DNA of 64,000 bases. Origin: a bacterium HR11. Its GTDB lineage: Bacteria; Acidobacteriota; HRBIN11. The stretch spans positions 1 through 64,000 of the forward strand of contig BEHN01000017.1 in the NCBI GenBank assembly GCA_002898535.1, given 5' to 3'. The position numbers and the translations under genes were made by a program. The notes beneath the pieces are model-generated. The model was given only the letters and a program-made list of their open reading frames with translations, had not been told where the DNA came from and searched no databases. Positions 19,218 to 64,000 of the stretch are shown here, one piece after another (position 1 is the first letter of the stretch; each line of letters begins with the position of its first letter).

Positions 19218-19837
19218 CAGAGCCGTTCGGTTCGTGAAAACCCGCATGGATTCGGCCTGATTGGCTCGTGGCTCATAGCGGATGGCTCATGGGACTATGA
19301 GCCATGAGCCACGATCTATGAGCCCATGCGGCTATGAGCCCATAGCGGCTATGGACCATAAATGACCCTGGCTCGTCCCTCCGTCACTTCGTTACTTCGT
19401 TACGCCGTCCCTTTGAAAAATCGTGCTTCCCGGGGGATGGGAAAGGTTGTTCCGACGCCATTCTCACGAACCGAACGGCTCTGCTAAGGTAGTGAGTGAT
19501 CTCTTCAGAACGCCGGGAGTCATCCCGGCGCCGCCGGTGACGGCGGCGTCCATCTCATCGGAACATCGCCCGTGATGACGGTGTCATCTTCATAGAGCCG
19601 GGCGTTATCCCGGTGTCCACCTCAGGAGACGGCCGTCATGCCGGCGTCAGTCCCCTGCGGGTCCCTACCCCCTAAGACCCCTCCGACAACAGCCCGGCAT
19701 CGAGGTCCGATAATTCAATAATTAAGTGTCGGGTACTCGGCCCTTCGGGAGCCCGACACCGAATGCCGGACGCTCGATACCCAGGCTCTATGCACGTACG
19801 AGTCCCGAGGCCCCCTTTGGGGACGAGGAGGTGCTCG
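19218..19837. repeat. Mosaic repeat region between the AddA-like gene and a lipoprotein gene
   Basis: No gene is supported. In order: a forward dispersed-module fragment (19218-19257), GAGCYAT heptamers (19261-19363), AGTGACGA-type octamers on the minus strand (about 19378-19406) and an inverted full module (19411-19484). Then come CCGGGAGTCATCCCGG-like units around 19510-19645, and TGTCGGGTACTCGG with its complement near 19727-19770. The two modules face each other, giving a large palindromic arrangement. Confidence 0.78.
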
Positions 19838-38657: not shown

Positions 38658-39138
38658 TCACCTCTCGACCCTGAACGCCCGATACCGACAGCCCTGTCAC
38701 TTTATGGGCAGAGCCGTTCGGTTCGTGAAAACCCGCATGGATTCGGCTTTTTCGACCCTTCGGGAAGGACGGTTTTTCAAGCCAAGGTTTTCATCCCAGC
38801 CCCGCTCGTTAGAGCGGGGTCCCACTTCGGGGCGGCCGATGTTTCAAGCCAAGGGCTATTCGGGAGTTCGGGAATTCAGGAGTTCAGCCAAGAGTCCCAA
38901 AAGCCCTGGGGACGCCCCTGGCCCATCCAGGGCTCTATCGGCCTATCGGCCCAAGGCCGTGGCTTGTCACCTCTCCGACGGCCGGGCGGCCGGAGGGCCG
39001 CGACCCCGCTCTAACGAGCGGGGCTGGGATAGAAAACGGCCCATGGCCGGCCTGGTTACATCAACCCTCCGTCCCTCCGTCCCTCCGTCACTTTGAAAAA
39101 GGGCTCATCCTGACGACCCTTCCACAGGAGGTGACCCC
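38658..39138. repeat. Mosaic repeat region between groEL and the selenoprotein gene
   Basis: No other gene is seen. A forward dispersed module lies at 38709-38783 and GAGTTCGG octamers near 38866-38888. A perfect 28-bp inverted repeat pair (38794-38821 and 39002-39029, each itself a GAGCGGGG hairpin) encloses about 180 bp. CCTCCGT units run into CACTTTGAAAAA at 39064-39098. Confidence 0.8.
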
Positions 39139-39378
39139 ATGAAGGTCAAGATCGTCTACTGCGCCGTTTGAAACTACGAGCCCCAAGCCGTCAGGTTGAC
39201 GGAAGAGCTCATCACCGAGTTCAAGCAGGCCCTCGAGGAGGTTACCCTCGTGCCGGCCGCCGGCGGCCGTTTCGAGGTCTACATCGACGGGGAAATGGTC
39301 TTCTCCAAGAAGGAGGCGGGCCGCTTCCCCAAGTACGAGGAGATTCGGTCGATCGTTCAACAGCGGCTGAAGCGGTGA
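39139..39378 (+). CDS. SelW/Rdx-family selenoprotein (UGA read as selenocysteine)
   Basis: From ATG 39139 (SD AGGAGGTG) the frame reads MKVKIVYCAV, then TGA at 39169-39171, then NYEPQAVRLTEELI and on to a TGA stop at 39376-39378. With selenocysteine at residue 11 the protein has 79 residues and a CxxU motif after a first beta strand. That is the thioredoxin-like redox site of SelW/SelT/SelH (Rdx) proteins. The downstream part keeps the family pattern VTLVPAAGGRFEVYIDGEMVFSKK and RFPKYEEI. A hairpin suited to a bacterial SECIS lies at 39188-39202, and selB is present at 62331. Without recoding, only a 10-residue peptide would be made. Thiol-redox function is inferred from the family. Confidence 0.93.
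39188..39202 (+). promoter_or_regulatory. Candidate bacterial SECIS hairpin
   Basis: CCGTCA (39188-39193), loop GGT and TGACGG (39197-39202) form a perfect 6-bp stem. The loop begins 22 nt after the UGA and starts with G. This matches the known bacterial SECIS constraints: a small apical loop with G in its first two positions, close downstream of UGA. Confidence 0.8.
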
Positions 39379-41544: not shown

Positions 41545-41636
41545 CTTCATCCCGGTAGCGATCAAGGAGGAGCTGACCCCCTCCCGACGCCGGGAGTCAT
41601 CCCGGCGTCAGTCTCCCGAGCACTACCATCCCACCC

Positions 41637-62330: not shown

Positions 62331-64000
62331 ATGCGGATGGGCCTCACGATCGTCCTGGCCGGCCACATCGACCACGGGAAGACGACCCTGGTCCGGGCCC
62401 TGACGGGCATCGACACGGACCGCTTGGAGGAGGAAAAGCGGCGGGGCATGACCATCGAGCTCGGCTTTGCGCCCTGGCGGCTCCCGGACGGTCGCTGGGT
62501 CAGCTTCGTGGACGTCCCGGGCCATGAACGGCTGGTCCACACGATGATCGCCGGGGCGGCCGGCGTCGACGCCGTCCTCCTGGTCGTCGCCGCCGACGAG
62601 GGCGTCATGCCCCAGACGGTCGAGCACGCCGAGGTCTGCCGCCTGCTGGGCATCCGGGAGGGCCTCGTCGCCCTGACCAAGATCGACCGAGTGGACGACG
62701 ACTGGCGGGCTTTCGTCGCCGAGACGGTCCGGGAGTGGCTGACGGAATTCGGCTGGGGCCATTTCCCCATCCTCGAGGTCTCGGCCTTACGGGGGGACGG
62801 CCTGGACCGCCTGCGGCAGGCCCTGGTCGAATTGCTGGACCGCCTGCCCGTGCCGCCGCCGGTCCAAGCCCCCCGGATCGCCGTGGACCGGGTATTTGCC
62901 CTGGCCGGCGTGGGGACCATCGTGACGGGCACGATGGAGGGCGCGCCCTTCCGGGTCCGTCAGACGGTGTCGGTCTATCCGAAGGGTCTGACGGCCACGA
63001 TCCGCTCGATTCAGGTCCATGAGCGGTCGGTCCCGGAAGCCGTCCCGGGTGCCCGGACGGCCCTGAACCTGCAGGGCGTTCACCATACCGAGCTGACCCG
63101 TGGAGACTGGGTCGCCGAACCGGGTCGGATGACCGTCGACCGGGCCTGGTACGCCTGGGTCCGGTGGCTCCCCGAGGCGGGCCGGTGGCGGAAGCCCAGC
63201 TCGGTCATGCGGTTCCACTTCCATCACGGGGCGGCCGCCCACGTCGCCCGCCTGTTTTGGGTCGGTTCGGTGCCGGCCCAGTGGCCCGAGGCGGCCCTCG
63301 TCCGCCTCGTGTTTGCCGGGCCGGTCGCCGGAAACGCCGGCGACGCCTTCGTCCTCCGGGCCATCTCGCCCACGCGGGCCGTCGGGGGCGGCCAGCTCAT
63401 CGAACCCGTCGGGCGGCGGACCCGCCGTCGGGAGCGGGCGGTCGCTGCCGCCTGGAAGGACTGGCCGGACCTGACGCCCGAGGCGCGGCTGGAGCGGTAT
63501 GTCGAACTCCACGGTCTGGCGGGGGTTACTTGGTCGGACCTCCAGGCCTGGACGGGCTGGACGGATGAGACGCTCCGTCAGCACTTGAGACCCCTCGTCG
63601 AGGCCGGCCGGCTGGTCGCCGACCGATGGCCCGAGGCGACGTTCGTCACGACGGCCCCGGCCGTCCAGACGGCCTGGGAGCGGGCTCGCCGGGTCCTGGC
63701 CGAATATCACGCCCGGCATCCGCTTCGGTCGGGCATGCCCCGGGAGACGTGGGTCCAGCAGTGGTGTCCGCGGGTCCATCCTTTCTGGAACGGCGTCATC
63801 GCCGCCTGGGTCCAGGAAGGCCGCATCGTCCAGGAGGAGGACGAGGTCCGGCTGGCCGAGTTCCAGGTCGTCCTTCCGCCGGACCTGGCCGAGGCCATTC
63901 AGGACCTGCGGTCCGAGATCGCCCGGCACCCCTGGGAGGGCCTGCGGTGGCCGGACGTCCGGGACCGGGCCCTCCAGATGGGCGTCGACCCGGAGGACCT
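62331..64000 (+). CDS. selB: Selenocysteine-specific translation elongation factor SelB (5' part)
   Basis: The frame starts at ATG 62331 (SD GGAGAG) and stays open to the window end, giving about 556 residues. The GTPase domain has GHIDHGKTTLVRALTG, the switch DTDRLEEEKRRGMTIELGFA, FVDVPGHERLVHTMIAGAAGVD and LTKIDRV (G4), all closer to SelB than to EF-Tu. Domains II-III follow (VFALAGVGTIVTGTMEGAPF, then GGGQLIEP). Winged-helix repeats that bind SECIS begin near residue 385. SelB delivers Sec-tRNA to UGA codons. selA, selC and selD are not in the window. It supports UGA recoding in the gene at 39139. Confidence 0.96.
   Translation, partial: MRMGLTIVLAGHIDHGKTTLVRALTGIDTDRLEEEKRRGMTIELGFAPWRLPDGRWVSFVDVPGHERLVHTMIAGAAGVDAVLLVVAADEGVMPQTVEHAEVCRLLGIREGLVALTKIDRVDDDWRAFVAETVREWLTEFGWGHFPILEVSALRGDGLDRLRQALVELLDRLPVPPPVQAPRIAVDRVFALAGVGTIVTGTMEGAPFRVRQTVSVYPKGLTATIRSIQVHERSVPEAVPGARTALNLQGVHHTELTRGDWVAEPGRMTVDRAWYAWVRWLPEAGRWRKPSSVMRFHFHHGAAAHVARLFWVGSVPAQWPEAALVRLVFAGPVAGNAGDAFVLRAISPTRAVGGGQLIEPVGRRTRRRERAVAAAWKDWPDLTPEARLERYVELHGLAGVTWSDLQAWTGWTDETLRQHLRPLVEAGRLVADRWPEATFVTTAPAVQTAWERARRVLAEYHARHPLRSGMPRETWVQQWCPRVHPFWNGVIAAWVQEGRIVQEEDEVRLAEFQVVLPPDLAEAIQDLRSEIARHPWEGLRWPDVRDRALQMGVDPED

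Follow-up and report, generated by a model that had tools for sequence, protein, structure and literature searches.

A short gene of bacterium HR11 (Acidobacteriota) carries an in-frame TGA at its eleventh codon. Does this TGA end the gene, or does it encode selenocysteine? The gene lies in a 64,000-nucleotide stretch of contig BEHN01000017.1 (positions 1 to 64,000 of the forward strand, here called the window), where it starts at ATG 39139, has its UGA at 39169–39171 and terminates at TGA 39376–39378 (Table 1). Reading through the UGA gives MKVKIVYCAVUNYEPQAVRLTEELITEFKQALEEVTLVPAAGGRFEVYIDGEMVFSKKEAGRFPKYEEIRSIVQQRLKR, in which the UGA-encoded residue completes the motif C8-A-V-U11 near the N-terminus. 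A first-pass annotation of the window had proposed this readthrough at residue 11 to a 79-residue CxxU protein, and had pointed out that TGA is both selenocysteine (Sec) codon and final stop in the one gene; all of its coordinates were right. This double use of TGA is the normal state. The AGGAGG of the ribosome site precedes the homologous gene in two relatives (L003 and L025) too.

The readthrough protein is a member of the SelW/Rdx families, as had been suggested. With Sec replaced by Cys for the profile searches, it passed the curated cut-offs of Pfam Rdx PF10262 (85.5 bits, E 2.9e-24; cut-off 22.6), TIGR02174 CXXU_selWTH (73.7 bits, E 1.1e-20; cut-off 34.2) and NF041051 SelT/SelW/SelH (seleno)protein (96.1 bits, E 1.1e-27; cut-off 88). 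It also matched the sequences of solved 2fa8, 2p0g and Selenoprotein W 2npb, with E values from 1.5e-19 to 5.9e-9.

Table 1. Features of the selW-like locus and of selB in the window.
Feature	Position	Strand	Evidence
Shine-Dalgarno AGGAGGTGA	39126..39134	+	sequence; strong ribosome site before ATG 39139
selW-like selenoprotein gene, 79 residues, Sec at 11	39139..39378	+	Pfam Rdx 2.9e-24, NF041051 1.1e-27
CxxU redox motif, UGA selenocysteine codon 39169-39171	39160..39171	+	same-residue UGA in 38 other genes read
Possible outer helix GAGC/GCUC, 39178-39181 with 39207-39210	39178..39210	+	predicted fold; extends hairpin
Bacterial SECIS hairpin CCGUCA-GGU-UGACGG	39188..39202	+	predicted fold, covariation, second gene set
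selB, Sec-specific elongation factor	62331..64000, runs past window end	+	TIGR00475 293.8 bits, over cut-off

The hairpin has the hallmarks of a bacterial SECIS, as it lies close 3' of the UGA and has a small apical loop containing G. Its perfect 6-bp stem (39188–39193 with 39197–39202) and its GGU loop (39194–39196), which begins 22 nt after the UGA, are exactly where the first reading had placed them. By itself, this hairpin is only modestly unusual and is weak evidence. It folds with a z-score of −1.5 to −2.1, and its fold energy is not outstanding; in random sequence of matched dinucleotide make-up a strict hairpin follows about 0.2–0.3% of TGAs, and a looser one about 2%, while in the window comparably strict hairpins follow 7 of 732 plus-strand TGAs. 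Given this chance rate and the modest z-score, a hairpin in a single sequence is insufficient proof. What goes beyond chance is the match of the protein to its family, the placing of the UGA among relatives, and covariation. An Rfam search of the selW region matched the hairpin to no family.

The other TGAs followed by strict hairpins (plus strand: 19493/19497, 27140/27143, 41574, 49814; minus strand: 31008) gave no recognisable redox protein on readthrough, and for each of them the frame was closed, or barely open, on one side or both. Separately, a 22-nt palindrome, (A/G)ACGCCGGGAGTCATCCCGGCG, occurs twice in the window, at 19509–19530 and 41586–41607 (chance expectation 0.01).

The comparison with relatives covered 60 genomes, including the window's own. 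A SelW match was present in 23, with an in-frame TGA in 22 of these. In every one of the 38 other UGA genes that were read directly, the UGA stands at the CxxU residue. Bacillus salacetis and a Chloroflexi MAG also have the UGA form; the Cys form is found in three archaeal relatives and in the acidobacterial L011. The terminators of the relatives' genes are TGA, TAG or TAA.

Conservation of the hairpin across relatives, with compensatory changes in the stem, was borne out by an alignment of 22 distinct UGA sequences. The stem cells were paired in 97.7% of cases, against 86.8 ± 1.5% in shuffles and 26–48% when the register was slid. Double-sided changes occurred in four of the six stem pairs (13 cells, compared to 2.7 in shuffles), and the covariation score was 0.430, compared to 0.211 for shuffled alignments. 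Pair 2 (C39189–G39201) alternates between C-G, U-A and G-C, and pair 5 (C39192–G39198) between C-G and G-C. As both of these pairs join third codon positions, the protein offers no explanation for their covariation, which points to selection on the RNA. The hairpin is absent from the four Cys homologues, which keep just 2–4 of the six pairs. A second set of 15 further UGA genes, outside the 22-sequence alignment, had six pairs in 11 genes, five in two and three in two, with loops that start GU or GG in all 15. The two exceptions with three pairs, in the tested register, are related genes of one genus (L071 and L075).

These comparisons bear directly on whether the gene is a pseudogene or an assembly error, in which a Cys codon (TGC or TGT) has become TGA and the hairpin is a coincidence. 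TGA is only one base away from either Cys codon, and such hairpins follow 0.2–2% of random UGAs. Against this, 38 other genes, which come from many families and include those of Bacillus salacetis and the Chloroflexi MAG, carry UGA at the corresponding codon, the frame beyond the UGA is intact and conserved, and the hairpin covaries. We therefore regard this explanation as exceedingly improbable. An equally slim chance attaches to a shorter protein starting 3' of the UGA, for example 60 residues from TTG 39196, where the downstream frame is indeed open: such a start would discard the CxxU and an N-terminal stretch that is conserved among relatives, and the strong ribosome site is placed before ATG 39139. 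Homologues starting 3' of the UGA with neither CxxU nor CxxC, feared at first pass, did not appear; those read keep one motif or the other.

Selenocysteine as the reading of codon 11 also calls for the decoding machinery, and the HR11 genome has the complete set of selA, selB, selC and selD. The selB gene at 62331, named in the first-pass annotation as a sign of this machinery, was confirmed and is complete in the longer contig (G000:C17), with 643 codons and both of the C-terminal winged-helix domains, SelB-wing_2 and SelB-wing_3. The remaining three genes, whose absence from the genome had been named in advance as grounds for refutation and is now ruled out, are on other contigs: selA on C13, selC (a tRNA-Sec with a UCA anticodon) on C14, and selD on C19. 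The selD gene has its own UGA (GG-U-AAK), and a hairpin with G in its loop comes after it. That UGA has been reassigned to another amino acid in HR11, or is read through without a SECIS, is scarcely credible. We found nothing in favour of it, and UGA terminates the HR11 selW-like gene and genes of relatives, the UCA-anticodon tRNA is tRNA-Sec, no sel gene is missing, and some homologues have Cys at the residue-11 site.

Among the 22 genomes with UGA-containing SelW in the 60-genome comparison, selA was present in 20 and was not found in two (G047 and G057). G057 is 72% complete, and G238, which is congeneric with G047, has selA; assembly gaps are the easiest explanation for the two missing genes.

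Two further UGA-containing genes of the HR11 genome were observed. One (G000:C8:74467–75246, minus strand) encodes a selenocysteine formate dehydrogenase alpha, FdhA, with QSRI-U-HGPT and the SECIS-like hairpin GGCCAGUCUGGCC. The other (G000:C1:381211–382461; L101 4658–5989; minus strand in both) is FwdB/FhcB-like and scores 509 bits against TIGR03129, the model of formylmethanofuran dehydrogenase subunit B. Its in-frame UGA lies in SHTSL-U-HGPT and its SECIS-like hairpin is GCCGUCC-AGGU-GGGCGGC; by eye, frames beside it resemble FwdA, FwdC and FwdD. UGA copies of the FwdB-like gene are also present in G001 and in the distant family f19 (G022). As a 2020 DMSO-reductase study stated that bacterial FwdB representatives are absent (PMC7331816), a Sec-containing bacterial FwdB with a bacterial SECIS merits its own look.

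Across the phylum, a SelW match was found in 120 of 396 sampled genomes, although the weakest of these matches may represent sister Rdx families. The copy is interrupted by TGA in 112 of the 120. For 37 acidobacterial genes, the window's own among them, the TGA position comes from direct reading, and for the others it was taken from the search tool. The eight without an internal stop comprise six genomes of family f19, plus G061 and G378. The f19 Cys forms are in G022 (L011), G127, G168, G200, G294 and G356, and in G022 the Cys-form SelW occurs together with selA and the UGA-interrupted FwdB. Since f19 genomes have selA, their Cys form did not arise from loss of Sec decoding. On balance, we lean towards the view that Acidobacteriota keep SelW mainly as the Sec form, and that family f19 has the Cys form despite selA. 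If true, f19 would be a within-phylum record of Sec/Cys exchange; for SelW-like proteins, Cys homologues in organisms that use Sec were described in 2006 as very few or absent.

Judged by eye from translations, groES-like and groEL-like frames lie upstream of selW on the same strand, and a CDP-alcohol phosphatidyltransferase-like frame lies downstream on the minus strand. The gene order is the same in SKYB104 (L041), a 94%-identical relative. Co-transcription of selW with groEL is unlikely because of the 517-nt gap after groEL, and scans for promoters and terminators near selW gave nothing above chance. Within the gap, a palindrome, CCCCGCTCGTTAGAGCGGGG, is found at 38800–38819, with an inverted copy 200 nt on at 39004–39023. 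The second copy coincides with a sub-threshold Rfam match to Acido-Lenti-1 upstream of selW (21.3 bits; gathering threshold 37).

The data above leave us highly confident that the HR11 gene encodes a SelW-like selenoprotein of the Rdx family with SECIS-directed Sec at codon 11. The gene, its family, the conserved UGA, the covarying hairpin and the complete machinery can all be seen, and Sec is presumably inserted in HR11 itself. SelB would bind the hairpin just 3' of the UGA through its C-terminal winged-helix domains and bring Sec-tRNA(Sec) to codon 11, while the final TGA at 39376, which has no such conserved signal, would be taken as a stop. The product would be a small thioredoxin-fold protein, with a CxxU pair suited to thiol/selenol redox chemistry; a redox role with partner proteins is likely, although role and partners are poorly known throughout the family.

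How does this gene compare to known systems? SelW-like proteins were the most abundant selenoprotein family in a Sargasso Sea survey (PMC1088965), and were among 25 families in a 2006 bacterial survey, which counted four selenoproteins in Acidobacteria (Zhang 2006; PMC1794560). We found no literature on selenoproteins of Acidobacteriota beyond this survey and deep-Sep. A 2026 review lists SelW-like proteins as predicted with high confidence, with the motif CxxU (PMC13188914), and SelW genes are often overlooked by annotation (PMC4607533). The HR11 gene confirms that a genuine selenoprotein which gene callers ordinarily truncate can be recognised from raw sequence without tools. It adds a well-supported acidobacterial case of SelW, and leaves knowledge of Sec insertion and of the SelW family unchanged. 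Like the SelW of Campylobacter jejuni (CJnc60), which was formerly unannotated, it is small and has a Sec-UGA. C. jejuni belongs to another phylum, and its readthrough is experimental, with Ribo-seq and proteomics/peptide support (PMC11955535), whereas the HR11 gene is known from sequence. Solved 2fa8, 2p0g and 2npb belong to the same sequence family as the HR11 protein. With the bacterial SelW-like family (PF10262, NF041051, TIGR02174; SELENOW-like) the HR11 gene shares its length, the Rdx domain, the N-terminal CxxU, and a UGA followed by a SECIS hairpin whose apical loop contains G. It is a genuine, correctly interpreted and ordinary member of this established bacterial selenoprotein family, a further copy from an acidobacterial lineage that shows no difference in kind.
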